Assembly: GCF_016907655.1 (NCBI RefSeq)
Contig: NZ_JAFBCL010000001.1
Coordinates: 1,364,001-1,428,000, forward strand
Source of the DNA: Saccharothrix algeriensis
GTDB lineage: Bacteria; Actinomycetota; Actinomycetes; Mycobacteriales; Pseudonocardiaceae
Length of the DNA stretch: 64,000 nucleotides
Reading direction: 5' to 3'
The notes under the pieces are model-generated. The model saw only the letters and a program-made list of their open reading frames with translations. It ran no database searches and had not been told where the DNA came from. The position numbers and the translations under genes are program-made. Below are positions 31,411 to 51,457 of this stretch, one piece after another (within the stretch, counting starts at the first letter, position 1; each line of letters opens with the position of its first letter).

Positions 31411-31932
31411 CGCACCTCGTGCGCATACCGGTCGCTTCGTGTTCTCCTCCCCGTACGGCCTGGGCGCAGCCCAATCATGCCGAGCAGGGGGTGTCAAGCA
31501 CGCTTCACCGCTTGACACCCCCTGCTCGGCATGATTGCCTCCGGCAGGCCGTACGGGGAGGAGAACACGACCGCTCTTTCTTTTCCTCCTCCTTGGGGGC
31601 CTCTCGGCCGCTCTTCTTACTTGTGTCCCGCACCGATCCGGGTAAGAATTGGTGCTGTACCGCCCGAGGCTGGAAAGAAAAAGAGTCCTCGCCGGACAGG
31701 CAGGCCGCCAAGGAGAATGAAAAGAAACTGCGGTCGTGTTCCCCCCGCATGACCTGTCAAAGACGACCATGCTTTTCCTGGGGGTGCAAGCGAAAAGCGT
31801 GCTTGCACCCCCAGGAAAAGCATGGTAGCCCTCCGGGCAGGCCATACGGGGAGAACACGAAGGCACCGGTCTGCACGGGGCGTGTTGAGAGCCAAAAGGC
31901 AAAAGCGGCGAGTCGGGCTGCGCGGGGTGTGC
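31411..31932. repeat. Paired-hairpin palindromic element, copy A
   Basis: About 520 bp, present again in reverse orientation at 49774-51457. The left and right halves are themselves imperfect inverted repeats about a centre near 31652. Hairpin 1 (31438-31569) has a perfect 25-bp outer stem (31438-31462 with 31545-31569) and a 28-bp inner stem (31472-31499 with 31510-31537), loop 10. Hairpin 2 (31735-31859) has an imperfect outer stem (31735-31756 with 31838-31859) and a perfect 26-bp inner stem (31766-31791 with 31801-31826), loop 9. No believable gene is inside. It lies between the NarL regulator and the phosphate operon. It resembles a MITE-like non-autonomous element or a family of structured RNAs. 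Confidence 0.9.
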
Positions 31933-32200
31933 CGAGAGCCGAAGGTTTCGGGCGGCGGGGTCTGTGCGGGCGGATCGGTGCTGCTCGCGCTTTCGGGGGC
32001 TTGGCGAGTCGACGGACTTCGACGGGGTACCCGCACCGGGTGACCGAACACCGCGCCCGAGAACACGACACCCGAGGACACCGCGTTCGAGGACACCGCG
32101 TCCGGGAACGCCGCGCCGGAGAACGCCGCGCCGAAGGGCACGCCCCCGGCAGCGGTCGCCGGCGTGCGAGCGGACCCCGCACCGAGGGCGTCTGATCGCC
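31933..32200. repeat. Upstream region of the phosphate operon with degenerate 15-bp tandem repeats (32046-32150)
   Basis: Six to seven units of the type GAACACCGCGCCCGA run from 32046 to 32150 (units start at 32046, 32061, 32076, 32091, 32106, 32121 and a poor one at 32136). The rest of the 270 bp shows no gene. The promoter of the DUF47-PiT operon should lie here, possibly within the repeats. Confidence 0.75.
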
Positions 32201-32821
32201 ATGCGCATCACCCGCAAGCCCACGGGCCAGAAGTTCTTCGACCTGTTCACCGAGGTCGGCTCCAACATCGGCGCCAGCGTCGAGGTGTTGCGCGACTTCG
32301 TGCGCGCCCCAGTCGACCGGCGCGCCGACCTGGCCGAGCGGATGCACGCGCTGGAGAACGTCGGCGACGACGCCACCCACGCCATCATCGAGCACCTGGA
32401 CCGGTCGTTCGTCACGCCGTTCGACCGGGACGACATCTACCGTCTGGCGGTCCGGCTCGACGACGTGGTCGACCACATGGACGCCGCCGTCGACCTGGCG
32501 ACCCTCTACCGGGTGAGCGAGCTGCCCGAGGGCGTGGAGGCGCAGGTGGACCTGCTGTGCCGGGCGGCCCGGCTGACCGCCGAGGCGATGCCGCGCCTGG
32601 CCGCGCCGCAGGAGCTGACCGCCTACTGGGTGGAGGTCAACGGGCTGGAGAACGAGGCCGACCGGGTCTACCGGCGGCTGCTGTCGGCGCTGTTCGACGG
32701 GCGGCGGGACGCGCTGGAGGTCATGAAGCTCAAGGACGTCGTGGAGGAGCTGGAGCAGGCCGCCGACGCGTTCGAGCACGTCGCCGACGTCGTGCACTCG
32801 ATCGCGGTCAAGGAGTCCTGA
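32201..32821 (+). CDS. DUF47/PhoU-like phosphate transport accessory protein
   Basis: 206 residues, nearly all helical. Signatures are FFDLFTEVGSNIGASVEVL, the MHALENVGDDATHAII metal-binding-type helix (E..D) with the matching second repeat VNGLENEADRVYRRLL, and VVEELEQAADAFEHVADVVHSI. The DUF47 family is related to PhoU and is encoded beside PiT transporters, where it modulates them. The stop overlaps the PiT start (TGATG), a firm sign of coupling. Confidence 0.92.
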   Translation: MRITRKPTGQKFFDLFTEVGSNIGASVEVLRDFVRAPVDRRADLAERMHALENVGDDATHAIIEHLDRSFVTPFDRDDIYRLAVRLDDVVDHMDAAVDLATLYRVSELPEGVEAQVDLLCRAARLTAEAMPRLAAPQELTAYWVEVNGLENEADRVYRRLLSALFDGRRDALEVMKLKDVVEELEQAADAFEHVADVVHSIAVKES

Positions 32822-33807
32822 TGCTCACGGCCGGGCTGGTGCTCGTGGTGGTGCTCGCCCTGGCGTTCGACTTCACCAACGGCTTCCACGACGCGGCCAA
32901 CGCCATCGCGAGCGCCGTGTCCACCCGCGCGCTGACCCTTCGGGCCGCGCTGGCGCTGGCCGCGGTGATGAACCTGGTCGGCGCGCTGCTGGGCACCGGT
33001 GTCGCGGTCACCATCGCCTCGGGGGTCATCGACACGCCGGTCGGCGCGGACGCCCTGCACGTGGTGACCGCCGCACTGGTCGGGGCGATCGCCTGGAACC
33101 TCGTCACGTGGTACTTCGGCCTGCCCTCCTCCTCGTCGCACGCCCTGGTCGGCGGGCTGGTCGGCGCCGCGCTGGCGTCGGCGACCTCGGTGCGCTGGGC
33201 GGGCGTGCTGGAGAAGGTGGTGGTCCCGATGGTGGTCTCCCCCGTCATCGGCCTGGTGCTCGGCTACCTGGTGATGACCGCGATCCAGTGGGCGTTCCGC
33301 AACGCCAACGCCCACCGCGCCGGCCGCCTGATGCGCCGGGCGCAGGTGGTCTCGGCCGCGAGCCTCGCCCTGGGCCACGGCCTGCAGGACGCGCAGAAGA
33401 GCATGGGCGTCATCGTGCTGGCCCTGGTGGTGACCGGGCGCCAGGGCGACTACTCGGTGCCGCTGTGGGTGGTCGTGGCGTGCGCGCTGGCGCTGTCGGC
33501 GGGCACCTGGTCCGGCGGCCTGCGGATCATGCGCACGCTGGGCAGGCGCATCTTCCACCTGACCCCGCCGCACGGCTTCGCCGCCGAGCTGTCGGCGTCG
33601 TCGGTGCTGTACCTGACGGCGTTCGCGTTCGCCGCGCCGGTCTCCACCACGCACGTGATCACCTCGGCGGTGATGGGGGTGGGCGCGACCACCCGGCGCT
33701 CGGCCGTGCGGTGGTCGGTGGCGGCCGACATCGCCAAGGGCTGGGTGCTGACCCTGCCGGCGTCGGCCGCCGCCGCCGCCGCTTACGGCGTCACGGCGCT
33801 CCTGTGA
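32821..33807 (+). CDS. pit: Inorganic phosphate transporter, PiT family
   Basis: 328 residues. The duplicated PiT signature is visible: FTNGFHDAANAIASAVSTRAL near the N-terminus and SLALGHGLQDAQKSMGVIVLA in the second half, plus LPSSSSHALVGGLVG and APVSTTHVITSAVMG. About ten membrane helices. It carries metal-phosphate with protons across the cytoplasmic membrane. Coupled to the DUF47 gene. Confidence 0.95.
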   Translation: MLTAGLVLVVVLALAFDFTNGFHDAANAIASAVSTRALTLRAALALAAVMNLVGALLGTGVAVTIASGVIDTPVGADALHVVTAALVGAIAWNLVTWYFGLPSSSSHALVGGLVGAALASATSVRWAGVLEKVVVPMVVSPVIGLVLGYLVMTAIQWAFRNANAHRAGRLMRRAQVVSAASLALGHGLQDAQKSMGVIVLALVVTGRQGDYSVPLWVVVACALALSAGTWSGGLRIMRTLGRRIFHLTPPHGFAAELSASSVLYLTAFAFAAPVSTTHVITSAVMGVGATTRRSAVRWSVAADIAKGWVLTLPASAAAAAAYGVTALL

Positions 33808-33823
33808 GGACTCCCCGGACCGC

Positions 33824-34513
33824 TCACGGCGCGGTCGCGGCGGCGCGGCGGACCAGGTCCGCGTACACCCCGGGGTCGTCGTGCTCGACCACCGGGAACC
33901 CGGTGTCCGGCTCGCCCACCCACTTGAGCCCGACACCGGGGTTGAGCACGTCGTGCCCGTCGGCGAAGAACAGGTGCGGGCAGCCCCGCACCGCGTCCCG
34001 GTTGGCCCGGTAGTCGCGCATCATCGGCCCGCGCGCCCGCCCGTCGTCCAACGCCTCGCCCAGCGCGTCGGCGTCCACGTTCGGGCACTTGCGGGCGATG
34101 TCGACGATCTCGTGCCGCAGCGACACGCACCGGCTGTCGCGGAACAGCGCCGTCCGCAGCGCCAGGTCCAGCTCCTCCGCGGCGCGCGGCGACTGCTCCT
34201 TGGCCGCGTGCACGGCCTCGCTCGCCGGCGCGGTGGTCACCGGCCACGTGGCCGGGTCCGCCTGCCAGAGCTTCCAGCCCAGGTCGGGCTCCAGCGCGCC
34301 GACCGCCGGGATCTCCGACTCCACGAGCCTCTTGGGCGTCGGGACGCCGTTGACGTCCTCCAGCAGGAAGGTCCGGTGGTCCAGGCTCACCCGGTCGACC
34401 AGCCCCGCCTCCTCCCGCGCGCGCAGCAGCCGCACGACCGCCACCGTCGACCACGGGCACCCGATGTCGGTGTAGATCACGATCGTCCCGGGCCGGACCT
34501 CTGGGCGTGGCAC
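33824..34513 (-). CDS. DsbA-family (FrnE-like) thioredoxin-fold protein
   Basis: 229 residues with IVIYTDIGCPWSTVAVVRLL; the CxxC position is C-P-W-S, so only the first Cys remains. Helical insert and C-terminal GCPHLFFADGHDVLNPG (cis-Pro-like loop region) follow. No signal peptide, so cytoplasmic. FrnE-like members act as isomerases or glutathione/mycothiol-linked enzymes; substrate unknown. Convergent with PiT, 16 bp apart. Confidence 0.85.
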   Translation of the reverse strand: MPRPEVRPGTIVIYTDIGCPWSTVAVVRLLRAREEAGLVDRVSLDHRTFLLEDVNGVPTPKRLVESEIPAVGALEPDLGWKLWQADPATWPVTTAPASEAVHAAKEQSPRAAEELDLALRTALFRDSRCVSLRHEIVDIARKCPNVDADALGEALDDGRARGPMMRDYRANRDAVRGCPHLFFADGHDVLNPGVGLKWVGEPDTGFPVVEHDDPGVYADLVRRAAATAP

Positions 34514-34614
34514 GTCTCCACCTCGTATTCAACGTCGACGGCGAACTCGGGACAACCAAGTACCGCAGGAGGCGCGACGGGCGCAACGCGACACCCGGCC
34601 GGGCGGTGGCCGCG

Positions 34615-34790
34615 CCCGGCCGAGCGCGGCCCACCCCGCGTCCCGGCCGGGCGCGGCCCACCCACGACCGGGCTGCCGGCGGCTCACCCAGACCCGGCCG
34701 AGCGCGGGCTCGCCCCACGTCCCGGCCGGGAGCGGGCTCGCCCCCGCGACCCGGCCGGGCGCGGCTCAGCCCACGTCCCGGCCGAGCGCG
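34615..34790. repeat. Imperfect 25-29-bp tandem repeats
   Basis: Six units of the type CGGCCGGGCGCGGCCCACCC-ACGTCC run from about 34615 into the last codons of the FAD dehydrogenase gene, with unit lengths 25-29. They fill the 250-bp gap between that gene and the DsbA-like gene; nothing else is visible there. Confidence 0.7.
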
Positions 34791-36427
34791 CGGCCGGCCG
34801 CCCGCCCGGAGAAGACGCAGCCGCCCAGGAAGCCGCCTTCCAGCGCGTTGTAGCCGTGCACCCCTCCCCCGCCGAACCCGGCCGTCTCGCCGGCCGCGTA
34901 CAGGCCGTCGACGACCGTCCCGTCCGGCCGCACCACCTGGGAGTCGAGGGTGGTCTGCACCCCGCCCAGCGTCTTGCGGGTGAACACGTTGAGGCGGACC
35001 GCCACCAGCGGCCCGTGGGAGGGGTCGAGCAGGCGGTGCGGCCGGGCGGTGCGGGTGAACCGCTCGGGCAGGTACGAGCGCACGTTGCGCAGGGACATCA
35101 GCTGCATGTCCTTGACGTAGTCGTTGCGCAGCTGGCGGTCGCGTGCCGCGGCCTCCCGCTCCACCTGCTCCGGCTCCAGCGGCGCCTGGGGGGTCAGCCC
35201 GTTCATCGCCTCCACCAGCGCGGGCAGCGTCCGGCGGATGACGACGTCCTCGCCGCGTTCGAGGAAGGCGCGCACCCTGCCCATCAGGCTCTTCTTCAGC
35301 CGCAGCGGCAGCAGCGCCCAGTTCTTGCCGGTCAGGTCGGGGTTCTGCTCCGAACCGGACAGGCCGAACTCCTTGTCCACCATCGAGTGCGTCATGATCA
35401 GCCAGGAGTGGGAGTGACCGCTCCGCACCACGTGCTCCAGCGCCCGCAGCTCGGTGTGGCCGGGGAACACCGGCGTGGGCAGGCGCCGGCCGGTCGCGTC
35501 CAGCCACAGCGGCGACGGGCCGGGCAGGAGGTGCACCGCGTGCTGCGGCCAGACCGGGCTGTGGTTGCGCAGGCCGTCGGGGTAGTGCCACATGCGGTCC
35601 AGGTTGACCAGCGCGCCGCCGGCGCGTTCGGTGATGCCGAGCATCCGCCCGTCGACGTGCACCGGCACCCCCCTGAGCAGCGTCGCGGGCGCCGGGCCGA
35701 GGCGGTCGGTCGGCCAGTGCTCGCGCACCAGGTCGAAGTTGCCGCCCAGGCCGCCCGCGGCGACCACCACCGCCTGGGCCCGCAGTTCGAACTCCCCGAC
35801 CACCTCCCGCGAGGAGGGCACGCCGCGCGGCTCGGCCGAGGGGACCAGCAGCGAGCCGCGCACGCCGACCGCGGCGCCGCCCTCGACGATGATCTCGTCG
35901 ACCCGGTGCCGGTGCTCGAAGGTCACCTGCCCGCGCGCGGCGGCGGCGAGCACCGGCTCGCGGAAGACCCGCACGAGGTCGGGTCCGGTGCCCCAGGTGT
36001 AGTGGAACCGGGGCACGGAGTTGCCGGTGCCGGTCGCGAGGCCGTCGCCCCGCTCGGGCCAGCCCACCAGCGGGAGCAGGCGCAGCCCGCGCCCGTACAG
36101 GTAGCTGCGCTTGTCGCCGGCGGCGAAGTCCACGTACGCCTCGGCCCACGCGCGGGCCCAGCGGTCCTCGCGGGCGCGGTCGAAGCGGGCCGAGCCCAGC
36201 CAGTCCGACAGCGCCAGCTCGGCCGAGTCCCGGATGCCCAGCCGGCGCTGCTCGGGGCTGCCGACCAGGAACAGGCCGCCCTGGGACCAGTGCGCCTGGC
36301 CGCCGAGGTTGGCCTCGTTCTCCTGGTCCACGACGACCACCCGCCGGCCGGCCCGGGTCAGCTCGTAGGTGGCGACCAGGCCGGCCAGCCCGGCGCCCAC
36401 GACGATGACGTCCGCGGCGTCGCTCAT
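34766..36427 (-). CDS. FAD-binding dehydrogenase (fumarate reductase/KSTD-like flavoprotein)
   Basis: 553 residues. N-terminal dinucleotide fold VIVVGAGLAGLVATYELTRAGRRVVVVDQE. GGQAHWSQGGLFLVGSPEQRRLGI is typical of the FAD-binding dehydrogenase group annotated in actinobacteria. AVVVAAGGLGGNFDLV and the C-terminal FAD loop GLYAAGETAGFGGGGVHGYNALEGGFLGGCVFSGRAAG complete the fold. Related to 3-ketosteroid dehydrogenases; substrate unknown. Start ATG 36427 shares ATGA with the hydrolase stop, so the pair is one operon. Confidence 0.9.
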   Translation of the reverse strand: MSDAADVIVVGAGLAGLVATYELTRAGRRVVVVDQENEANLGGQAHWSQGGLFLVGSPEQRRLGIRDSAELALSDWLGSARFDRAREDRWARAWAEAYVDFAAGDKRSYLYGRGLRLLPLVGWPERGDGLATGTGNSVPRFHYTWGTGPDLVRVFREPVLAAAARGQVTFEHRHRVDEIIVEGGAAVGVRGSLLVPSAEPRGVPSSREVVGEFELRAQAVVVAAGGLGGNFDLVREHWPTDRLGPAPATLLRGVPVHVDGRMLGITERAGGALVNLDRMWHYPDGLRNHSPVWPQHAVHLLPGPSPLWLDATGRRLPTPVFPGHTELRALEHVVRSGHSHSWLIMTHSMVDKEFGLSGSEQNPDLTGKNWALLPLRLKKSLMGRVRAFLERGEDVVIRRTLPALVEAMNGLTPQAPLEPEQVEREAAARDRQLRNDYVKDMQLMSLRNVRSYLPERFTRTARPHRLLDPSHGPLVAVRLNVFTRKTLGGVQTTLDSQVVRPDGTVVDGLYAAGETAGFGGGGVHGYNALEGGFLGGCVFSGRAAGRALGRDVG

Positions 36428-37368
36428 GACCGGCCTCCCCCGACCAGCGGACCGGTGTCGTCCCCACCGGCGGCCACGTCGACGGCGGTGCCCGGGGTGG
36501 CGGCTCCGGCCAGGAAGGGCAGGACGGCTCCCAGCAGGGCTTCGGGGGCTTCCACCGGCAGCAGGTGGCCGGCGCCGGGGAACAGCCGCAACCGCCCGCG
36601 GCGCAGCCTGCGCCGGGCGGCGATCCCCTGCCAGAAGGGCACCATGAGGTCGCCCAGCCCCCAGGCGACCAGGGTGGGCATCGACAGCTCCGGCAACCGG
36701 CCGAGGGCCAGGTTGCGCTGCCCCAGTGGGCCCACCGAGGCGCGCATGGAGTTCAGGCTGGTGGTCAGCGAGCCCGGCGTGGCGACGGCCTGGACCTGGC
36801 TGGACCACCACAGCGCGGACATCCGCCACGGCCGGCGGGCCCCGATCAGCGCCGTCCCGCCGACGAGCGCCTTCGGGCCGAAGGGCAGCACGGGGATCAG
36901 CCGCACGGTCAGGTCCCCGAGCGGGGTGACCGACTGCACCACCATGGCCGGGTTGATGGCGCGGCCCATGCCGGAGGGGCTGACCAGCACCAGCGCCGAG
37001 AGCCGGTCGGGCCGCTGCAGGGCCGCGGTGACGGCCACGCCGCCGCCCAGCGAGTGCCCGACGAGGGCGTGGCGCTCCAGGCGGAGCGTCCGGGTGAAGG
37101 CGTGGACGAACGCGGCGAGCGCCGCCGGGGAGCTGTCGGGGATCGGCTTGGTGTAGCCGTAACCCGGCAGGTCCACGGCGACGGCCCGGTGGTGGCCGGC
37201 GGCGAGGCCCTGCAGGACGTCGTGCCACTGCTCGGCGACACCGCCCTCGCCGTGGAGCAGCACGACAGGGCTTCCCCTGCCCGCTTCCAGGTAGCGGGTC
37301 TCCGTGCCGTCCACGACCGTCCAGTGCTCTTCCACTGCGTGCGCCCGCCCTGTGGTGGACGTGGTCAT
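36424..37368 (-). CDS. Alpha/beta-fold hydrolase
   Basis: 314 residues. Oxyanion HGEGG, AVDLPGYGYTKP, nucleophile elbow LVGHSLGGGVA, the acid region LVAWGLGDLMVPF and the final His in GAGHLLPVEAPEALL are all in order. Possibly an esterase or C-C hydrolase. Coupling to the FAD dehydrogenase suggests oxidation followed by hydrolysis of a ketone or steroid-like substrate (inference). Confidence 0.88.
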   Translation of the reverse strand: MTTSTTGRAHAVEEHWTVVDGTETRYLEAGRGSPVVLLHGEGGVAEQWHDVLQGLAAGHHRAVAVDLPGYGYTKPIPDSSPAALAAFVHAFTRTLRLERHALVGHSLGGGVAVTAALQRPDRLSALVLVSPSGMGRAINPAMVVQSVTPLGDLTVRLIPVLPFGPKALVGGTALIGARRPWRMSALWWSSQVQAVATPGSLTTSLNSMRASVGPLGQRNLALGRLPELSMPTLVAWGLGDLMVPFWQGIAARRRLRRGRLRLFPGAGHLLPVEAPEALLGAVLPFLAGAATPGTAVDVAAGGDDTGPLVGGGRS

Positions 37369-38662
37369 CGCGATCTCCTGTTCCCGTCATCCGGCTGCGC
37401 GGAAGCCGCGGGCGGTGCGCGCGGGCGCCGGGGCGCCGGCTGCGGCACCGTCTCGCCGCGACGAGTGAAATCCGTCAGCCGGAAGGTATTCGCGCGCCGT
37501 GCGCCGCCGGCAGGCGTGCGCGACGCCATCGGGAGCGCGCCCGCGGGGTGGTGCGCGCGCTCGCTCGCGCGGCGGCGCCCGCGGGGCGCGCGGTGCGAAC
37601 GGGGGGCGCGCGCCCTCGCCGCCGGACCCCCTCCGCCCGCGCGGTGGTGGCGCGGCCCGGGTTCGCACCGATCCGGGGCCGCACCGGTCCGGGGCCGCAC
37701 CGGTCCGGGGCCGCACCGGTCGTCCGGTGAACGGCCGCGCGCCGCGCGGCGGGGCGGGCCCGCGACCGGGCTGGGCCACCGGCCTGGAATTCCCCGCGAA
37801 TGGGTGCCGCGCGCCACCCGCCGCAGCGTTCGGCCGGTCCGGTCATCCCGTCGGCCTAGCCCGCTTGTCGACACCGGGGCCCGAACGGGTTACTTTTTAC
37901 CGGAGAACGCGCGAAACGCCCATGTTCACCCCATCGGCTTATATCCAAACCCCGCGCCGCTTCGCCTAGCATAACTTTAACCCTGAACGAAATGACGCTC
38001 TCGCCAATGGGGTGAGCAATGGGAGAAGCAGAGTCGGGCACACCACGGGAACGGGAGCCGGCATCGGGTCAAATGTGAACCGGGCGGCCACCGCGCCGCC
38101 CCGGCTCCGGGCGACCGCCCGGGCGGGGCGTGCCCGCGGGCGGTGACGCGCTCGCCCACCCGGCGCTCCCGGGCGGGGCCGACCACCGGCCGTGACCACC
38201 AGGTCGCAGCCACCGGTCGCAGCCACCGGTCACGACCTGCGGTCGACCGGTGCGACGCCGCTCCCACCGCGCGGCACCCGCCGACCGGCGCCGCGCAGCG
38301 CGCCGCGACCCGCTCCCGGGACCGGCGGGCGCCGATCCCGCCGGCGCCCGCCGAACGGCGCCCGGACCACCGCTTCGCCTCGGCCGGGCATTCCCCTCCC
38401 CGGCCCGCCGGCCGGAATCCGGTGGCCGATCGAAACCGGGGAGGGAGTCCGCGCAGCGCTGCCGGGCGAACGACCGACCCGCATTCGCGAACACGGCCGC
38501 CGCAGCGACCGGAAGCGCTGGACCACGCCCTTAGAAGGCACGTGGCCCCGCATTTTCCGGCCGGTCGCCGACCGGTGCTCCGGGTAACCGCCGAACCGGT
38601 TGCGGAACAAATCCGTCCGCCCCGGGTCCGCCCAGGGGAAATGCGAAGGAGACACGAGAGCT
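37369..38662. other. Long intergenic region with a 16-bp tandem repeat
   Basis: About 1.3 kb without a supported gene. It holds three and a half 16-bp units GCACCGGTCCGGGGCC at 37665-37728 and a 13-bp direct repeat near 38202-38227. An AT-richer block at 37930-38010 (CTAGCATAACTTTAACCC) is the best promoter candidate. A 15-codon frame (37921-37968) has no ribosome-binding site at a useful distance. Confidence 0.55.
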
Positions 38663-40033
38663 ATGGGCGTACGACCGCCCGCTGGCCGGAAGTCGAACGA
38701 GCGGCTGCGCGCCGTGATGGAGGAGGCCGGGTGCTCCAACACCGGGCTGGCCCGCCGGGTCAACGTCTGCGGCGCCGAGCACGGGGTGGACCTGAGGTAC
38801 GACAAGACGTCGGTCGCCCGGTGGCTGCGCGGCCAGCAGCCGCGGGGCCGCGCGCCCGTGATCATCGCCCAGGCGCTCGGGCACAAGCTGGGCCGCGTGG
38901 TGACCGTCGAGGAGATCGGCATGGCGCAGCCCCACGGCGCGGCGCCCGCCGCGGGGCTGCGGTTCGAGCCGGTCCTCGCCGGCGCCCTCCGCCAGGCGCG
39001 CGCCCTGTGGCACAGCGACGCCGACCGCGCCGGCCACCCCGCCGGCGAGCGGCTGTCGCCCTCCGTGCTCGTCCAGCCCAGCCGCGACTGGCTGATCACC
39101 GCACCGGACGCCGCCGTCGCCGGTCGCGGGCCGGCCGCGGTCGGCGCGGCGGACGTCGCGGCGGTGCGGGCGACGACCGCCGCGTTCGCCGACCTCGACC
39201 ACCGCTTCGGCAGCGCCCTCATCCGCCCGGTCGTCGTCCACTACCTCGACAGCGTCGTCTCCCGGCTGCTGGGTGACTCCTACGGCGAGTCCACGGGCCG
39301 GCAGCTGTTCACCGCCGCGGCCCGGCTCACCGAGCTGGCCGGCTACCTGGCGGTCGACACCGGGCGACCCGGTCTCGCGCAGCGCTACTACATCCAGGCC
39401 CTGCGCCTGTCGCAGGCGGCGGACGACCGCGGGATGGGCGGCTACGTGCTGGCCGCCGGCATGAGCCGGGTGGCCCTGGCGCTGGGCAGCCCCCACGAGG
39501 CCGTCCAGCTCGCCCGCGTGGCGCTGGAGGGCTCACGCGGGCGCAGCACCCCGGCGGTGCGGGCGGTCTGCCACGCGGCCGAGGCCCGCGGCCACGCCCT
39601 GCTGGGCGACGCGCGGGCCTGCGAGCGGGCCACCGGGCGGGCGGTCGAGGAGCTGGCGCAGGGCGACCCGGCCGAGGAGCCGGAGTGGGCCGCCCACGTC
39701 GACCGGGCGCACCTGGCCGAGGAGCTGGCCCGCTGCGCCGCGGACCTCGACCGGCCCGCGACCGCCGTGCGGTGGGCCCGGGAAGCCCTCCAGGGCTGCC
39801 CGCCCGGCCGGTGGCGGCGGCGGGCGCTCCGGCTGCTGCTCCTGGCCTCGGCGCAGGTGCGCGCGGGCGACGTCGACCAGGGCCACCGCACCGCGACGCA
39901 GGCCGTGGAGGTGCTGCGGGGGCTGTGCTCCGCGCAGTGCGCCGACGAGCTGGAGGACTTCCGCGGCCGGCTGGAGGCGTCGGGGTGGCGCGCGGAGGCC
40001 CGCGAGCTGGTCGCCGGGGTAGACCGCGGCTGA
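38663..40033 (+). CDS. HTH-TPR transcriptional regulator (actinobacterial XRE-like family)
   Basis: 456 residues from ATG 38663, with AGGAGA upstream. The N-terminal helix-turn-helix-like region is about 8-75 (NERLRAVMEEAGCSNTGLARRVN, then YDKTSVARWLRGQQPRGRAPVIIAQALG). The helical TPR-like C-terminal two-thirds include LTELAGYLAVDTGRPGLAQRYYIQALRLSQAADDRGMGGYVLAAGMSR, a pattern common in Streptomyces/Pseudonocardiales development regulators. Target genes are unknown; the decarboxylase lies convergent on the other side. Confidence 0.85.
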   Translation: MGVRPPAGRKSNERLRAVMEEAGCSNTGLARRVNVCGAEHGVDLRYDKTSVARWLRGQQPRGRAPVIIAQALGHKLGRVVTVEEIGMAQPHGAAPAAGLRFEPVLAGALRQARALWHSDADRAGHPAGERLSPSVLVQPSRDWLITAPDAAVAGRGPAAVGAADVAAVRATTAAFADLDHRFGSALIRPVVVHYLDSVVSRLLGDSYGESTGRQLFTAAARLTELAGYLAVDTGRPGLAQRYYIQALRLSQAADDRGMGGYVLAAGMSRVALALGSPHEAVQLARVALEGSRGRSTPAVRAVCHAAEARGHALLGDARACERATGRAVEELAQGDPAEEPEWAAHVDRAHLAEELARCAADLDRPATAVRWAREALQGCPPGRWRRRALRLLLLASAQVRAGDVDQGHRTATQAVEVLRGLCSAQCADELEDFRGRLEASGWRAEARELVAGVDRG

Positions 40034-40089
40034 GCGCGCGGCCCGGGGGCCCGGCCGCGCGGGCCGGGCCCCCGGGAGCCTCCCCTCGC

Positions 40090-41856: not shown

Positions 41857-42045
41857 GTCTGGTCTCCTTCCTGGTCGCCGCCGGCGGGCGCGAGGCGGCA
41901 TCGGGTGTGTCCGGGGCTCAGGGGTGGCGCGCGGGTCCGGGGCGCGCGTCCGGGGGCGCGGGGGTGGCGCGGGGCCTGCCCGGTGGCCGGCGAACGACCC
42001 CGGACCGCCTTGTCGGGAACGCGGCGGGTGCCATGCTTCGGCGCT

Positions 42046-42408
42046 GTGGAAGGAAATCTGCCCGGACGACTGGTTCCCGATCCACTGTGGACGGTCGTCG
42101 CACCGCTGCTGCCGGGGTTCCGCCCCCGTCCGCAGGGCGGCGGGACCGTCCCGCGCGCCGGTCGCGAGGTCTTCACCGCGGTGGTGTTCGTCCTGACGAG
42201 CGGGTGCGCCTGGCGCGACCTGCCGCCGTCCTTCGGCGTCCCGCCGGCGACGGCGCACCGCCGCTTCACCGCGTGGGCGGAGGCGGGGCTGTGGGAACGG
42301 CTGCGGCGGGCGCTGGCCCGGGAGCCGGGCCTCGGCGCCGACCGGGAGTGGGCGGCGGCGATCGTCGACGCCGCGCTGTCCCGGCGCGGGCGCGTCACAT
42401 CCCGATGA
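42046..42408 (+). pseudogene. IS5-family transposase fragment (N-terminal DUF4096 part)
   Basis: 120 residues from GTG 42046: LVPDPLWTVVAPLLPGFRPRPQGGG, VFTAVVFVLTSGCAWRDLPPSFGVPPATAHRRFTAWAEAGLW is the standard N-terminal domain of IS5-group transposases. It stops at WAAAIVDAALSRRGRVTSR, just where the first catalytic Asp (ID(S/A)) and the DDE domain should continue. The DDE domain is missing. Its end overlaps the 3' end of the convergent ligase gene by 14 bp, so the IS has been cut off there. Confidence 0.85.
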
Positions 42409-44119: not shown

Positions 44120-44667
44120 GGATTTCCTCCGGATCGGATGTCGCTGCCGGGTTGGTCCGGACCGCCGGGCGCCCGCAAGTCCTCGCCGCCGAACGTAGGC
44201 CGCGCCCGCACCGCCTGTCGCCCTCGCCGGAGGTCTCGCGTGGCGGCCCGCGCGACGCGCTCGTCGCCGTGCGCCTGTGCCGCGGGAAGAAAGGCCGGAT
44301 CAGCGTTTTGCCGTGGTGCGGCGCATTCCGCCCCGTTTCGCGGGCCGTGCCCGGGAAAGCGCCGAGCGGCTTCGGGCGATCCGGGTCGTGCCACGTCACC
44401 GGGCGTCCCACGTGGGACGCGTCCCCGTTGTCGCATTCGGTTGCGCGGCCGGGGGATCGCGCGCTCCCCCGCACCCCTGCCGCGCGCCCTGCGCCCTCCC
44501 GGGCGACGGGGCGCGCCACGGACCCCCAACGCGCCTGCCGCCGCGCTGCGCCCGGTTCTACGTTTCTGCCACAGGACGTGGATGCCACCGGACTTCCGCC
44601 CGCTCCGCGCGGGGTGCATCCGACACCACGACGTGAAGGCCGACCGGCCTGGCGAGGAGCGCGACCG
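44120..44667. promoter_or_regulatory. Divergent promoter region ligase / PHA synthase with 18-bp palindrome at 44403-44420
   Basis: About 550 bp without a gene. GCGTCCCACGTGGGACGC at 44403-44420 is a perfect 18-bp palindrome with a CACGTG core and could be an operator controlling both sides. CATTCGGTTGCGC shortly after resembles a sequence at 22893 upstream of the OmpR regulator. Confidence 0.5.
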
Positions 44668-46092
44668 GTGAACCCGTGCAGCAGCAACGCCCCGACGACC
44701 GAGGGATCGACGCGGCACGGGGAGCGGCGCGCCAGGGCGCCGCTCCTGTCGGCACGGCGCCGGGCGCAGGCGCGGTTGTTCGCCCGGCTCCTCGCCGATG
44801 CCCTGGACCCGGCGAACTTCCTGCTGGGCAACCCCGCCGCGCTGCGCCGGGCGGTGGCCACCCGCGGCACGAGCCTGGCCCGGGGCGCGGGCAACTTCCT
44901 GGACGACCTGGTGCGCCGGCGGGGCCGCCCCGCCAAGGTGCCGCCCGGCTCCTACCGCCTGGGCCGGGACCTGGCGGCCACCCCCGGCCGGGTCGTGCAC
45001 CGCGACGACCTGGTGGAGGTGATCCAGTACGAACCGCGGACCGGCGAGGTGCACCGCACGCCGCTGCTGCTGATCCCCGCGTGGGTCAACAAGTTCTACA
45101 TCTACGACCTCGCGCCGGGCCGCAGCCTGGTGGAGTGGGCGGTCCGCGAGGGCTTCACGGTGTTCGCGATCAGCCAGCGCACCCCCCTGCCCCGGCACGC
45201 CGACGTGGGCCTGGACGAGTACTTCCGACGGGTCCCGCTGCGCGCCTGGGACGTCGTGCGGGAGATCACCGGCTCACCGCGGGTCCACCTGGTCGGAGTG
45301 TGCGCCGGCGGGGTGCTCGCCGCGTCCCTGGCCGCCTGGCTCGCGGCGGGCGACGAGGAGGGCGCGGCGACCCTGACGCTGCTGATGTCCGCTCTCGACC
45401 ACACCCCGCCGGACGGCCGCGACGACCCCTGGTCGACGGCCGAGACCGAGGCGCTGACCCGGCTCCTGACCAACCGGGAGGGGCTCGTCGACGGCGGGAG
45501 GGTCGGGCTGCTGTTCGACCTGCTGCGCTCGCGGGACACCGTGTGGCGGCCCATGGTCTCCGGCTGGCTGCTGGGCGAGCGGCCGAAGCCGTTCGACATC
45601 TGGGCGTGGAGCGAGGACGCCGTCGACGTCCCGCCGGTCCTCTTCGGACAGACCATGCGCATCGCGGCGGACAACGTGCTGGCGCGCGGCCGGTTGCGGC
45701 TGGCGGGGCGGCCGGTGGACCTCTCCGCCGTGACGCAGGACGCCTTCGTCGTGGCCGGTTCCCGCGACCACATCGTGCCCTGGGAGGCGGTCTACCGCAG
45801 CGCGCGGCTGCTCGGCGGCGACGTCGCCTTCCACCTGGTGCCCTCCGGGCACGTGGGCGGCATCGTCAACCCGCCGCGCCCCGCGGCGCGGTACCGGACC
45901 GGCTCGGGCCCGCTGCCCGAGGACGCCGCGGTGTGGGCCGCGCGGTCGGCGGCGCGGCAGGAGTCCTGGTGGTCGGCCTGGTCGCGGTGGCTCGCCACCC
46001 GCTCGGGCCCGCGCGTGCCCGCCCGGCCCGCGGGCAGCGCGCGACACCCCGCCGGCGCCCCCGCGCCCGGGCGCCACGTGCGGGCGCGGTGA
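44668..46092 (+). CDS. phaC: Polyhydroxyalkanoate synthase-like protein (PhaC)
   Basis: 474 residues from GTG 44668 (GAGGAG upstream). Signatures are the [23 protein letters not shown] segment, lipase-like box GVCAGG with catalytic Cys212, Asp in [11 protein letters not shown] and His in [12 protein letters not shown]. It polymerises hydroxyacyl-CoA at granule surfaces. It is shorter than class I enzymes (about 560-590) at both ends, and the Arg-rich N-terminus has no clear phasin-binding helix. An amino-acid dehydrogenase and an SDR follow. The SDR could supply (R)-hydroxyacyl-CoA (inference). Confidence 0.88.
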
Positions 46093-46151
46093 GACCGCGC
46101 CGCCGGGTGGGCGGGGCACGGCATCGAAGTCGCTTTCCGAGGAGGAGCACC

Positions 46152-47288
46152 ATGAACACGTTCACCAGCAGCGCGCCGGCCGCGGCGCTCGGCCCGGTCC
46201 CCTTCGACCACGAGCAGGTCGTGCTGTGCCAGGACGCGGCCTCGGGGTTGAAGGCGGTCATCGCCCTGCACTCCACCGCCCTGGGCCCGGCCCTGGGCGG
46301 CGTCCGGTTCCGCGCCTACGCCGACGACGAGGAGGCGGTCGTGGACGCGCTGCACCTCGCGCGCGGCATGTCCTACAAGAACGCGGTGGCCGGGCTCGAC
46401 TTCGGCGGCGGCAAGGCCGTCATCATCGGGGACCCGGCGCGGGACAAGACCGCGGAGCGGCTGTCGGCGTTCGGCCGGTTCGCCGCCTCCCTGGGCGGCC
46501 GGTACGTGGCCGGGTGCGACCTGGGCACCGACGCGGCGGACCTGGACGTCATCGCGCGCACGTGCCGGTGGACCGTGGGCGGTTCGCGGGTGGGAGCCGG
46601 CGCGGCCGACGGGTCGATCTTCACCGCCCGCGGCGTGGTCCAGGCCATGCGGGCGGCGGCGCACCACCGCTGGGGCACGGCATCGCTGCGGGGCCGCTCG
46701 GTCGGCGTGGCGGGGCTGGGCAAGGTCGGGTACCTGCTGGTCGGGCTGCTGGTGGCCGAAGGCGCGGACGTGGTGGTCACCGACGTGCTCGACGGGGCGG
46801 TCCGCCGCGTCGTGGACAGGTTCGGCCAGGTCGTCGTGGTGGACGACACCGAGGCGCTGCTCCGGTTCGAGGGCCTGGACGTCTACGCGCCGTGCGCGGT
46901 GGGCGGCGCGCTGGACCCCGAGGTCGTGCCGGTGATCACCGCCGAGGTCGTGTGCGGCGCGGCGAACAACCAGCTGGCCGAGCCCGACGTGGAGCGGCGG
47001 CTCGCGGACCGCGGGGTGCTCTACGTCCCGGACTACGTCGTCAACGCCGGCGGCGCGATCCACGCCGCCGGCGACCTGCTCGGGCACTCGCCCCAGCAGG
47101 TCGCCGACGGCGTCGAGCGGATCTTCGGCACCACGCTGGCCGTGCTGGAGCACGCCGAGTCCGAGGGCCTCCTGCCCGGCGCCGCCGCCGACCGGATCGC
47201 CGAGCGGCGCATGGCCGAGGCGCGGGCGCGGGGCGCCCACCGGGGCGCCACCACCGCCCACGGAGGGCCCGCGGGGGGCCGGGCGTGA
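46152..47288 (+). CDS. vdh: Leucine/valine/phenylalanine dehydrogenase
   Basis: 378 residues from ATG 46152 (GAGGAGGAG upstream). Catalytic region [31 protein letters not shown] with the two active-site lysines, [14 protein letters not shown], Rossmann [16 protein letters not shown], and [20 protein letters not shown]. Oxidative deamination of branched or aromatic amino acids with NAD. Valine dehydrogenase in streptomycetes feeds branched precursors to polyketides. Stop shared with the SDR start (GTGA). Confidence 0.92.
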
Positions 47289-48073
47289 TCCTCGACCTCT
47301 TCCGGCTGGACGGCCGGGTCGCGGTCGTGACCGGGGCCGGCCGGGGCATCGGCGCGGCCAGCGCCGTGGCGCTGGCCGAGGCGGGGGCCGACGTGGTGCT
47401 GGCCGCGCGCGCGGAGCCCGACCTGCTCGCCGTGGCCGAGCGGGTGCGGCGCGCCGGGCGCCGGGCGCACGTCGTGCCGGGCGACCTGGCGGACCCGGAG
47501 GCCGCCGCGGCGCTGGCCACCCGCGCCGACGCCGAGTTCGGGCGGATCGACGTGGTGGTCAACAACGTCGGCGGCGGGCTGCCCAGGGCGTTGGCGCGGA
47601 CCACGCCGGAGTCGCTCGTCAAGGCGTTCCGCTTCAACGTCTCCACCGCGCACGCCCTGACCCGGGCCGCGGCCGGGGTGATGCTGCGCGGCGGCGGCGG
47701 CGCGGTGGTCAACGTCTCCTCGGTGGTGGGCCGCGTCGCCGGCCGGGGCTTCCTCGCCTACGGCACGGCCAAGGCGGCGGTGGCCCACTACACCCGGCTC
47801 GCGGCGGCGGACCTGTCGCCCCGGATCCGGGTCAACGCCGTGGCGCCGGGCACCGTGCGCACGTCGGCGCTGGACGCGGTGGTCGGCGAGGACGCGCTGC
47901 GCACCCGGGTCGAGCAGGCGACGCCGCTGCGGCGGATCGGCACGCCGCTGGACGTCGCCGCCGCGGTCCTGTACCTCGCCTCGGACGCCGGCGCGTACCT
48001 GACCGGGAAGGTGATCGAGGTGGACGGCGGGTTGCAGGCCCTCAACATCGACCTCGGCCTGCCCGACCCATGA
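47285..48073 (+). CDS. Short-chain dehydrogenase/reductase
   Basis: 262 residues from GTG 47285. Cofactor motif [13 protein letters not shown]; catalytic Ser in VNVSSVVG, Tyr-x3-Lys in YGTAKAAV; C-terminal [12 protein letters not shown]. Typical FabG/7-alpha-HSDH-like SDR. Coupled to the amino-acid dehydrogenase. A 3-ketoacyl-CoA reductase for the PHA synthase upstream is plausible. Confidence 0.9.
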
Positions 48074-48266
48074 CACCGGGCCGCCCGGGAGGCCCGGCGT
48101 CCGGTGGCCGTCCGGGTCCGGCGCGGGCGGCGTTCGCGGCGCGCTCCCCCCGGCCCGCGGACGCAGCCCGCGCCGCTGCACGGGTCGGACCCGCGACGCC
48201 GACAATGCGTGACGACACCGACACCGACACCGCGCGGCGCCGCCGCGCACCGACCGGGGGACACCG

Positions 48267-48821
48267 ATGCCGATGATCCGCTTCGCCAGCACCAACGCCA
48301 TCAAGCTGGAGGAGGCCCGTGCGCTCCTCGGCGAGATCGAGCCGATCGCGCTGGACCTGCCCGAGATCCAGTCGGTCGACCCCTCGGTCGTCGTCCGCCA
48401 CAAGCTGGCCGGCATCGCGGACCTCGGGCTGGACGGGCCGGTCCTGGTCGAGGACACCGCGCTGGTGGTCGACGCGTGGGACGGCCTGCCCGGCGCGCTG
48501 GTGAAGTGGTTCGTGGAGACCTGGGGGCCGGCGGGCCTGGCCCGCCGCACCCTGGCCGCCGGCGGCGCCGGCGGCGCGCTGGCGGTCAGCGCGGTGGGCG
48601 TACTCGACCGGGGCCGCACCGGGCTGTGGACGGGCGCGCTGCGCGGGCGCATCGTCGCCCCGCGGGGCGAGCTGGGCGGCTGGACGTCGATCTTCGAGGT
48701 CGACGGCCACGGCAGGACGCTGGCGGAGCTGGCGTTCGACGAGCGCCTGGCCGTGACCATGCGCCGCGCCCCGCTGCTCGAAGCGCGCGCCTGGCTGCTC
48801 GACCGCGCCCGGTCCGCGTGA
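48267..48821 (+). CDS. Ham1/RdgB-like non-canonical purine NTP pyrophosphatase
   Basis: 184 residues. FASTNAIKLEEARALLGEIEPIALDLPEIQS (S/T-x-N-x-x-K-x-x-E motif), then LVEDTALVVDAWDGLPGALVKWFVETWG. Removes ITP/XTP/dITP from the nucleotide pool. The opening FASTNAIKLEE is a close match to the Ham1 phosphate-binding loop. Separate from the SDR by about 190 bp. Confidence 0.88.
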   Translation: MPMIRFASTNAIKLEEARALLGEIEPIALDLPEIQSVDPSVVVRHKLAGIADLGLDGPVLVEDTALVVDAWDGLPGALVKWFVETWGPAGLARRTLAAGGAGGALAVSAVGVLDRGRTGLWTGALRGRIVAPRGELGGWTSIFEVDGHGRTLAELAFDERLAVTMRRAPLLEARAWLLDRARSA

Positions 48822-48858
48822 CCACCGCACCGATGCCGGGGCCTACCGCGGCGGACGG

Positions 48859-49653
48859 CTACCGCTCGGCGTCCCGGGGCAGCAGCGGCCACGAGCGACC
48901 GCGGTCGCGGACGTCCGCGGCCCGTGCCCGCAGCCGGTCGGCCCCGGCGGTGTCGCCGTTGGACGACCGGGCCGCCGCGTAGCCCTCCAGCTTGTCCGCG
49001 TAGGCGATCTCGCCGACCCGGAACCAGTCGGCCTGGTGGTCGTGCAGGACCTGCGGGGCCACCAGCCCCACCGCGTCCGGGTACACCCTGGCCAGCCGCC
49101 ACGCCAGCCGGGCCGCCGCGATCGCGTCGCCCGCGCTGGTGTGGGCGCCCTCCAGGCGGACCCGGTAGTGCTCGCACACCGCGGTCAGCGTCCGCTTGCC
49201 CGCGCGGTGCGGGTCGACGTGCCGGTCGATGCACCACGGGTCGACCACCGGGCCGCCGAGCTCCAGGCCCTGGCCGTGGTGCCGCCGGAGTTCGGCGTCG
49301 AGCATCGTCAGGTCGAACGCGGCGTTGAAGGCGCACAGCGGCGTCGTCGGCGTCCACACCTCGGCCAGCACTCCGGCCACCTCGCCGACCACCTCCGCCG
49401 CGGGACGGCCCTCCCGGCGCGCCTGCTCCGTGCTGATGCCGTGGATGGCCGTGGCCTCGGCCGGGATCTCGACCCCCGGATCGGCCAGCCAGGTGCGGGT
49501 GACGACCTCCGGGCGCGCCCCGGGGCTCCCCGGCGTGACGATCACGACGGCGGCGGTCACCACCCGGTCCCGACGCGGGTCGACGTCGGTGGTCTCCAGG
49601 TCCAGGGCGAGGATGCGCCCGTCGGCCCAGGACACCGACAGCAGTTCGGTCAT
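48859..49653 (-). CDS. DnaQ-like 3'-5' exonuclease (DEDDh)
   Basis: 264 residues from ATG 49653. Exo I ALDLETTDVDP; Exo II CAFNAAFDLTMLD; Exo III HTSAGDAIAAARLAW with the DEDDh His. Same layout as actinobacterial DNA polymerase III epsilon-like stand-alone exonucleases. The C-terminal 100 residues are helical and not assigned. Convergent with the Ham1 gene; the repeat element copy B begins about 120 bp before its start. Confidence 0.9.
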   Translation of the reverse strand: MTELLSVSWADGRILALDLETTDVDPRRDRVVTAAVVIVTPGSPGARPEVVTRTWLADPGVEIPAEATAIHGISTEQARREGRPAAEVVGEVAGVLAEVWTPTTPLCAFNAAFDLTMLDAELRRHHGQGLELGGPVVDPWCIDRHVDPHRAGKRTLTAVCEHYRVRLEGAHTSAGDAIAAARLAWRLARVYPDAVGLVAPQVLHDHQADWFRVGEIAYADKLEGYAAARSSNGDTAGADRLRARAADVRDRGRSWPLLPRDAER

Positions 49654-49773
49654 GCGCCGCAGCGTAGTGTCGCCGCCCACGACCCCGGCCGCCCAGCGGG
49701 GACGTGTCGGCACGCCCCTTCGGTGTCGCGCCCCCTCCAACGACTCCCGGCTTTCGTCTCCCGACTTCGAGCA

Positions 49774-50034
49774 CACCCCGCGCAGTTCAGCTTTCAGGTT
49801 TTCGGCACGCCCCGTGCAGACCGGTGCCTTCGTGTTCTCCCCGTATGGCCTGCCCGGAGGGCTACCATGCTTTTCCTGGGGGTGCAAGCACGCTTTTCGC
49901 TTGCACCCCCAGGAAAAGCATGGTCGTCTTTGACAGGCCATGCGGGGAGAACACGACCGCTCTTGCTCTTCCTCCTCCTTGGCGGCCTGCCCGTCCGGCG
50001 AGGACTCTTTTAATCTTTTCAGCTTCGAGCGCTA
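49774..50034. repeat. Paired-hairpin palindromic element, copy B, left part
   Basis: Reverse-oriented second copy of the 31.4-kb element, interrupted at 50034 by an IS630 insertion and continuing at 51211. This part carries the hairpin-2 equivalent: outer arms 49831-49852 and 49934-49955, inner perfect 26-bp stem 49864-49889 with 49899-49924, loop 9. The inner stem is identical to that of copy A. Confidence 0.9.
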
Positions 50035-51210
50035 CTGATCTTCAATTGTTGGGGTCAGGTTGGTTCGGGGGTGAGGGTCAGGCCGGTGTGGGCGAGGAAT
50101 CCGTCGAGCAGGTCGGGCCGGTTCCGGATGAGGCGGAGTCGGCGGCGCACGATCGGGACCAGGTCGTTCAGACCGACGGGGGCGAGGTTGGCCAGACCGC
50201 GTTTGAGGTGTGACCACACCCCTTCCACCGGGTTGAGTTCCGGGGCGTAGGCGGGTAGTCGGATCACGTGCAGCCAGTCCCGGGCGGCGAGGGCGGGCCG
50301 TATCCGGGCGCTGATGTGCCGGTCGAGGTTGTCCCAGATCAGCACGATCGGGCCGCCCAGGCGACGGTGGGCGTCGTCCAGCAGCGCGAGGTAGTGCCGC
50401 TCGAGGAAGCTGCGCGGGGCCGGCGGGCTGCGGCGGCGGTGGTGCACGAGCACCCGGTGCAGCAGCCGGGTGCGTTCGCCGGGTTTGACGCAGAGCAGGC
50501 CGGCCACCGAGATCCGACCCTGGGAACCGGCCCAGTAGGGCAGGACCGGGGTGTGGCCGCGCCTTGCCCAGGTGCGGGCCTTGTGCGGGCGGGTGTTGCA
50601 GCCGGTCTCGTCCTCGAAGCACAACCAGGCGCCCAGGTCCGCGGCTAGGGTTTTCCCCGCGCCCACGACTCCCGCCGCCAGGCGGTGACCGCGGCCTCGT
50701 CACGGCGGTCGGCCCGCCGGGCCGGCACCTGGGGGCTGTAACCGATGCGGTGCAGCACCAGCGACATCCCGGCCGGGGTGTAGCGCACCGCGAACAACCG
50801 CGCGACCAGCTCCGCGACCCTGGCCAGGGTCCAGCGTCGATCCTCGGTGTACCCGTGGGCGGCCGGCCCCTGCTCCAGGGCCTGGACCAGCCGGTCGAGC
50901 CGGGCCCGGTCCAGACGGCAGTCCGGCCCGCCCGGCCCCCTGGAGCGCAGGGCCTGCCGGCCCCCGGCACGCCACAAACGCCGCCAGGCATAGGCGGACT
51001 TGGTCGACACCCGCAGACCACGAGCGACCTCGCAGGCGCCCACACCACGCTCGAACCAGTCGGCGGCCTGCATCCGCACCGCCTCACGTCGGGCCCGTTC
51101 CCGTCCGGTCAGGCCACCACCATCGGGATAGCGCATACCCCACGGGTACCCCCGGGACAGCCCCACCCACCGACACAAGCCACCACAGACCCCAACAATT
51201 GAAGATCAGT
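50035..51210. mobile_element. IS630-family insertion sequence with TA target duplication
   Basis: 1176 bp bounded by perfect 22-bp terminal inverted repeats (50035-50056 and 51189-51210, beginning CTGATCTTCAATTGTTG). It is flanked by TA at 50033-50034 and 51211-51212. Removal of the element and one TA restores the paired-hairpin repeat found at 31.4 kb, which proves the ends. Confidence 0.95.
50055..51136 (-). CDS. IS630-family transposase made by -1 frameshift
   Basis: Two overlapping frames. The first (51136-50645; a longer frame opens at 51178) has the N-terminal HTH: MRYPDGGGLTGRERARREAV, GVGACEVARGLRVSTKSAYAWRRLW. The second (50666-50055) has the DDE domain: first Asp in CFEDETGCNTRPHKARTWARRG, second Asp in PIVLIWDNLDRHIS and Glu in PAYAPELNPVEGVWSHLKR. 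In the overlap, the zero frame reads CGG-GGA-AAA-CCC-TAG. G-GGA-AAA (plus-strand 50651-50657) is a textbook X-XXY-YYZ slippery heptamer, and a -1 slip enters the second frame directly. All catalytic residues are present, so the element may be active. Confidence 0.9.
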
Positions 51211-51457
51211 ACGGCACCAATTATTACCTGGATCCGTGCGCGACCCAAGTATGAAGAGCGGCCGAGAGGCCCCCAAGGAGGAGGAAAAGAAAGGGCGGTC
51301 GTGTTCTCCTCCCCGCACGGCCTGCCGAAGGCAATCGCATTTGTCGGGGGGTGTCAAGCGAAGAGCGTGCTTGACACCCCCCGACAAATGCGATCGGGCT
51401 GCGCCCAGGCCGTACGGGGAGGAGAACACGAAGCGACCGGTATGGCACGAGGTGCGG
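51211..51457. repeat. Paired-hairpin palindromic element, copy B, right part
   Basis: Continues copy B after the IS630. Carries the hairpin-1 equivalent: perfect 25-bp outer arms except one base (51301-51325 and 51407-51431) and perfect 26-bp inner stem 51335-51360 with 51370-51395, loop GAAGAGCGT. Part of the inner stem (about 11 bp) is different from copy A in both arms. Confidence 0.9.

Follow-up and report, generated by a model that had tools for sequence, protein, structure and literature searches.

A high-copy paired-hairpin repeat of Saccharothrix algeriensis and its possible kinship to DUF222-HNH elements with palindromic ends

The chromosome of Saccharothrix algeriensis carries a real, high-copy and lineage-specific repeat, built from palindromic hairpin cassettes, which comes and goes between congeners as a mobile or fast-turnover sequence. 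Judged by sequence comparison, its most likely relatives are elements in which a DUF222-HNH gene is flanked by palindromic ends. We give about an even chance to the reading that the repeat is a non-autonomous, MITE-like relative of such an element, with stems that are kept perfect by template switching. Among the matches listed, the family comprises about 180 hairpin cassettes at about 104 places of the 6.88-Mb single-contig chromosome (G000), of which 76 hold a pair and 28 a single cassette, some of the singles possibly because the number of matches listed was limited; the total merges several searches and includes 30 cassettes known from the outer-stem arm pattern alone. A preliminary description of the window (the whole stretch of 64,000 nucleotides that was analysed) had presented a two-copy element, a view that has to be given up since the pair represents 2 of these places. 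The size of the family was apparent in every search of the chromosome: the DNA search returned at least 40 strong places (40 of 150 candidates scored), the outer-stem arm pattern occurred 38 times per strand against 0 for the reversed control, and a covariance model gave at least 150 matches, all to E 5e-21, among the best 150 of 8503 candidates. The loop motif CGAAAAGCGTG was present at 124 sites, compared with 2 for its reversed control, and at no more than 8 sites in any of 295 other genomes sampled across the phylum, all from outside the host family.

The two copies of about 520 bp in opposite orientations and their nested stems are present as previously reported, the second copy being inverted and split by an insertion sequence. 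Copy 1 (31411..31932, + strand, subfamily A) has the order hairpin 1 cassette (inverted), M′, linker, M, hairpin 2 cassette, where M is a motif that adjoins the cassettes. Its hairpin 1 cassette (31437..31570, − strand, loop ACGCTTCACC) consists of a 26-bp outer stem (arms 31437-31462 and 31545-31570) and a 28-bp inner stem (31472-31499 and 31510-31537), both 100% paired. Two candidate triloop mini-hairpins lie at its junctions on the + strand, GGGC-GCA-GCCC at 31462..31472 and GCC-TCC-GGC at 31537..31545; they correspond to helices 4 and 2 of a 19-cassette alignment, in which 95.9% and 93.0% of their cells, respectively, are paired. The earlier account of the element did not include the possible triloop hairpins at each junction. 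Motif M (CTCGCCG..GGCAGGCCGCCAAGG) adjoins hairpin 2 at 31683..31715 on the + strand and bears a likeness, by eye, to the one that DUF222-HNH elements have next to their cassettes. The hairpin 2 cassette (31734..31860, + strand, loop GAAAAGCGT) has a 23-bp outer stem with 3 mismatches (arms 31734-31756 and 31838-31860) and a 26-bp inner stem that is 100% paired (31766-31791 and 31801-31826).

Copy 2 lies on the − strand. Its hairpin 2 part, up to the insertion, occupies 49774..50034 (inner arms 49864-49889 and 49899-49924, outer arms 49830-49852 and 49934-49956), with motif M, read from the sequence, at 49975..50007 on the same strand, and its hairpin 1 part occupies 51210..51457 (− strand; outer arms 51299-51324 and 51406-51431, inner arms 51332-51359 and 51369-51396, stem allele GCATTTGTCGG). 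The insertion (about 50035..51209, − strand, end CTGATCTTCAATTGTTGGGGTC) is bordered by TA at 50033-50034 and 51210-51211; its ORF at 50645-51178 has the Pfam domain HTH_33 and the second ORF tested gave no Pfam match. From the TA target and HTH_33 we take it to be IS630-like. The inner stem of hairpin 2 is identical in sequence in both copies, and the hairpin 1 blocks are unrelated between the copies yet perfectly paired in each, exactly as first described. When folded as single-stranded DNA, hairpin 1 gave z values of -18.0 on one strand and -17.9 on the other, and hairpin 2 (minus 5 left-arm bases) values of -10.3 and -11.5; since 0 of 200 shuffles folded as well on each of the four strands, the hairpins are not a product of chance. 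The single-sequence DNA fold predicted the junction mini-hairpins in hairpin 2; in hairpin 1 it preferred an extended stem.

Each cassette measures about 133 nt. Its outer stem has 22-26 bp (core CCCCGTACGGCCTG), the junction may form two triloop mini-hairpins, and the inner stem of 26-28 bp is closed by a conserved loop, such as that of hairpin 2 in copy 1. The two cassettes of a pair in this genome stand back to back with motif M inward of each, in the order cassette-M′-M-cassette. A structural alignment of 19 cassettes from 7 genomes supported a four-helix structure, in which 96.4% of 1040 cells were paired and which 0 of 500 shuffles equalled. Compensation was extensive in the same alignment: 35 of 55 pairs had changed on both sides, and the tally of cells amounted to 189 double changes, 3 one-sided changes and 4 G-U pairs in total. 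Three column pairs were unpaired in 7 of the 19 sequences each, two of which would be wobble on the opposite strand. These mismatches, conserved across species, count against full arm-to-arm correction because such correction would erase them. Among 25 loci folded by script, those from other genera retain the nesting of hairpins, several of them also retain the loop, and their stems are quite different.

The DNA search matched 15 of 25 genomes of the genus, the own one included, and only 7 have at least 31 matches. The model search, with at most the best 16 candidates per genome, matched 45 of 200 genomes and 16 of 46 genera of the family, where weak matches of about 75 bits, seen in several genera, fell in many cases on both strands and are possibly unrelated palindromes. 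Sequence subfamilies are species-specific. A term search of the Saccharothrix espanaensis genome paper returned nothing on repeats, palindromes, stem-loops, hairpins or insertion sequences, and plasmid and phage collections gave no match in a distant search mode that may leave out near relatives.

The behaviour of the stems was followed in an alignment of 40 copies, namely copy 1 and 39 further copies fetched with their flanks, which fall into two flank subfamilies, A (25/40) and B (15/40). The hairpin 1 inner stem occurs as 20 haplotypes. The argument from covariation would fall with variable arms that do not pair, and those of hairpin 1 pair perfectly over 26 bp in 39 of the 40 aligned copies, the lone imperfect stem having one T.G mismatch (L039). 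Hairpin 2 has 7 inner-stem haplotypes and is perfect in 35 of 40 copies. Eight pairs of hairpin 1 haplotypes differ at a single position that is mirrored on both arms, and four of these differences are transversions. Because transversions cannot use a G-U intermediate, and almost no G-U pairs are found in the inner stems, the mirrored changes support the arm-to-arm copying that had been proposed. The exchange of variable blocks, proposed alongside it, was borne out as well: 1 of the 20 hairpin 1 haplotypes and 3 of the 7 hairpin 2 haplotypes are shared by the two flank subfamilies, each subfamily is seen with each of the two main hairpin 2 alleles, which makes four combinations, and hairpin 2 of one copy (L037) has its left arm from one allele and its right arm from another. 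The preliminary description had also held that random mutation cannot produce such stems. This is right, but a published process can, namely template switching at hairpins during replication, as described in PMC8794818.

The outer stems behave differently. Their arms lie about 82 nt apart and are often mismatched: the hairpin 1 outer stem is perfect in 10 of 40 copies, with 15 of the 30 imperfect ones being subfamily B copies that have an alignment gap, and the hairpin 2 outer stem is perfect in 2 of 37 (three copies split by an insertion sequence were dropped). Perfect pairing of near arms and imperfect pairing of far ones is what arm-to-arm template switching predicts. The stems as a whole are best explained by hairpin template switching together with gene conversion. 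The widely shared outer-stem mismatches (hairpin 1 position 18; hairpin 2 positions 9, 15 and 19; the subfamily B gap set aside) are all of the wobble type when orientation is read from the neighbouring gene. As about four positions are involved, the bias is graded as a hint that selection acts on one strand, whether of RNA or of DNA, and it tells against a purely DNA-level view.

This wobble bias in one orientation is one of the observations that speak for a different reading, in which the repeat is a spreading 3′-end regulatory element whose hairpins act at the RNA level as bidirectional terminators or 3′-UTR stabilisers and whose stems are kept paired by selection. A second one is gene context. 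Among 39 copies, the neighbouring genes called by a crude GC3 method were convergent in 15, co-directional in 18, divergent in 3 and undetermined in 3, so that convergent gaps hold more copies than divergent ones, and the right-hand gene ends toward the element in 26 of the 36 copies with both neighbours called. These counts are rough, because the right-hand calls at L017 and L034 are genes of inserted insertion sequences and because, next to copy 1, the caller's result conflicts with Pfam evidence for a gene that ends at 31174 on the + strand. A T-rich tract also follows each hairpin in subfamily A; in subfamily B, however, the hairpin 1 tract is shortened and lacks the T run. A simple scan for terminators performed at chance level (1 found against 0.8 expected), and mismatches present in one or two copies showed no strand bias when tallied. 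Further, inner stems nearly devoid of G-U pairs and mirrored transversions are unlike slow RNA covariation. Taken as the main explanation, this regulatory reading is unlikely. A role at transcript ends, in termination or mRNA protection, is possible either as a rival or as a secondary function, and it is compatible with the mobile-element reading.

The connection with DUF222-HNH genes came from Actinocrispum wychmicini DSM 45934 (G150). At two places there, model R1 identified cassettes paired in inverted orientation and separated by 1.4-1.5 kb, with E values of 2.6e-19 at the first (L107) and of 8.6e-18 and 1.8e-15 at the second (L108). Between the cassettes lies an ORF of 410 aa with DUF222 (E 5e-39 and 1e-40) and HNH domains, the HNH score of the second ORF being slightly under the family cut-off. 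The cassettes together with the adjacent motif form inverted repeats of about 300 bp that flank the gene: at L107 they extend over 323 bp with 100% identity, and at L108 they consist of four pieces of 51-106 bp with 82-96% identity. Of the 10 A. wychmicini loci, 2 had too short a flank and were dropped; 7 of the remaining 8 have long hairpins on both sides, and the eighth, which lies at a contig start, has them on one side.

A survey of 80 DUF222 loci, 71 of them with enough flank, gave an inverted-repeat score of at least 40 in 14 of 71 loci, and of at least 30 in 16 of 71 against 3 of 71 shuffled pairs, some of which came from the same species. The 14 high-scoring loci comprise all 8 from Actinocrispum, 5 from Allokutzneria and 1 from Lentzea, whereas the loci of Kutzneria, Arthrobacter and, with one exception, Lentzea scored below 40. 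In two genomes (G208 and G165) some DUF222 genes have inverted repeats with simpler hairpins; many other DUF222 loci of the same comparison showed none. Since 14 of 71 loci have such ends, 8 of them from one species, the DUF222 gene may ride on the cassettes and not move them. Counted from the cassettes, and among the matches listed, 6 of 10 places in A. wychmicini and 3 of 8 in another genome (G087) lie no more than 1.2 kb from a DUF222 gene, compared with 0 of 7, 0 of 8 and 0 of 13 in three genomes (G050, G134 and G208) that all carry DUF222 genes. One lineage thus shows a strong link and a second one also has it, but it was not seen in the others. No DUF222 gene was detected in 9 of the 10 same-genus genomes searched, the own genome included, by family search and, in the own genome, also with a protein query. 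For one DUF222 element, a search for the empty site in six genomes of its genus mapped the left and right flanks to different places.

Motif M adjoins the cassettes in both systems, lying outside the pair in Actinocrispum (M-cassette-gene-cassette-M′) and between the cassettes in the element of the window (cassette-M′-M-cassette). The latter order would be that of the ends of a DUF222 element joined to each other. Under the favoured reading, the two palindromic cassettes are relatives of the long inverted repeats at the ends of elements bearing DUF222-HNH, and the folded cassette would be acted upon by the HNH enzyme, or by a relative of it that may be lost from or unrecognised in this genome. 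The substrate could be an extruded cruciform or a single strand with the conserved loop, from which copying into new sites would start. Template switching between the arms during replication would then restore perfect stems, and the position at gene 3′ ends might stem from a preferred target or from selection against insertion into promoters. Going further, the elements may constitute a mobile-element class of their own among prokaryotes. The DUF222-HNH endonuclease would identify its own nested-palindrome ends by their shape as a folded junction and, by break-and-copy, would move both these ends and cassette pairs without the gene to the 3′ ends of genes; the hairpin arms would be continually rewritten from one another, so that the stems vary in sequence and still pair perfectly. 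This wider proposal is tentative and we regard it as somewhat improbable.

MITEs are non-autonomous derivatives of IS elements. The repeat is likewise gene-free, non-coding and dispersed, has inverted ends and is related to the ends of a larger, gene-bearing element. It differs from MITEs in having no recognised DDE transposase or readable target duplication and in its ends, which are nested palindromes in reversed order, and the related ends that were found belong to DUF222 elements of another genus, with no DUF222 gene detected in the same genome. The actinobacterial REP13E12/DUF222-HNH family, named as repetitive in PMC10589994, consists of a multi-copy DUF222-HNH gene, with cassette ends in Actinocrispum, whereas the window elements lack the DUF222 and HNH domains that their Actinocrispum relatives have. 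Regarding hairpin maintenance, mirrored changes likewise keep stems perfect in PMC8794818; here the family is a high-copy DNA repeat whose alleles are then exchanged among copies.

The absence of DUF222 genes that could account for the copies in the host genus leaves room for another transposase, of the tyrosine (Y1/HUH) or another type, encoded elsewhere in the genome and unrelated to DUF222, for which the hairpins would be single-strand substrates in the manner of RAYT and REP. High-copy palindromes, mostly intergenic and arranged in inverted pairs as in BIMEs, fit this reading, and PMC2817692 and PMC3733652, on REP/BIME and RAYT, describe high-copy extragenic palindromes in inverted pairs with possible roles in termination or on mRNA. 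However, REPs are short palindromes of 20-40 bp according to PMC3733652. The present cassettes are several-fold larger, at about 133 nt, and have nested stems as well as a conserved loop; we judge a RAYT-like origin quite unlikely.

The comparison of empty sites, suggested at the outset, could be carried out for other elements of the genome. Two 20-kb blocks are syntenic with two congeners (G021 and G002; main matches 82-92% identical) and contain four elements, all of which (4/4) have a cassette-free orthologous place in both relatives. The gaps at these sites measure 621-951 bp in S. algeriensis. In G021 they are about 515, 112, 1620 and 123 bp long, and the corresponding values for G002 are about 880, 108, 1795 and 940 bp, so that site b in both relatives and site d in G021 are only about 110-125 bp long. 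The three short places were aligned and the other five of the eight were scanned for nested palindromes, which detected one different hairpin (G002, site c). Conversely, one element of G021 is absent from the other two genomes. The junctions were unreadable to the base for target-site duplications, the intergenic flanks being too diverged. Copy 1 itself lies beyond its syntenic block, and synteny stops at 48074, before copy 2. Presence and absence could also reflect the loss by deletion of old, immobile intergenic repeats reshuffled by gene conversion, to which the mosaic alleles across copies point, and a comparison between species cannot by itself separate gain from loss. Such a history would nevertheless need repeated loss at the four sites empty in both relatives and at that of the G021 element, and it sits poorly with the species-specific subfamilies; we consider it improbable. 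A guide-like or target-capture RNA, the remaining suggestion of the preliminary description, was rejected, given stem alleles shared between unrelated loci, inner stems nearly devoid of G-U pairs and no Rfam match at gathering score within 28000-54000.

The repeat provides a bacterial case, with tens of alleles within a single genome, for weighing template switching, gene conversion and structural selection against one another. For the DUF222-HNH genes, which are multi-copy in several actinomycetes, no account of mobility was found in the literature listings surveyed, nor did the titles and abstract openings there mention palindromic ends, and the cassette ends offer a testable substrate. The predicted fold of the DUF222-HNH protein had a pLDDT of 77.7 and a pTM of 0.44. 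A Foldseek search with this model gave nothing at E 0.001 (best 0.019), and the HNH-type entries among the best 50 matches listed were IscB, McrA and Cas9. Profile comparison showed that the HNH part alone resembles solved structures (IscB, Cas8f-HNH and McrA). When 29 proteins were aligned, the HNH part showed invariant Cys, His and Asn residues, which we take to be those expected of such a domain.

Insertions of the IS630-like type were found at a TA dinucleotide in 4 of the 41 element copies examined, namely the second copy of the window, where the insertion occupies positions 50035-51209, and three further copies from the same genome (loci L017, L034 and L037). A 22-bp end is common to the insertions of all four interrupted copies, and in three of the four cases the insertion site was one identical TA within the outer stem of hairpin 2. 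The second copy of the window is also overlapped by the 5′ part of an ORF with an RNase_T exonuclease domain, as listed (48859-49941); the true start of this ORF is probably located further in.

Hairpin 1 is adjoined on its left flank, upstream, by short G+C-rich palindromic repeats (e.g. loci L012 and L030-L049), the type of which differs between flank subfamilies A and B. Most cassette pairs are spaced by 283-326 bp, whereas the cassettes of one pair (L161:1186-2339) lie 1020 bp apart and enclose about 700 bp of additional sequence that, by eye, looks partly coding.

A second hairpin family, represented by L157:9156-9277, combines an unchanged loop (GAAAAGCGT) with a different stem and has dozens of matches in the congener G002. 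In G002, the hairpins at L184:1970-2151 are repeated and have a similar loop (ACGCCTTTG), and their site matches a place where the genome of the window carries the element.
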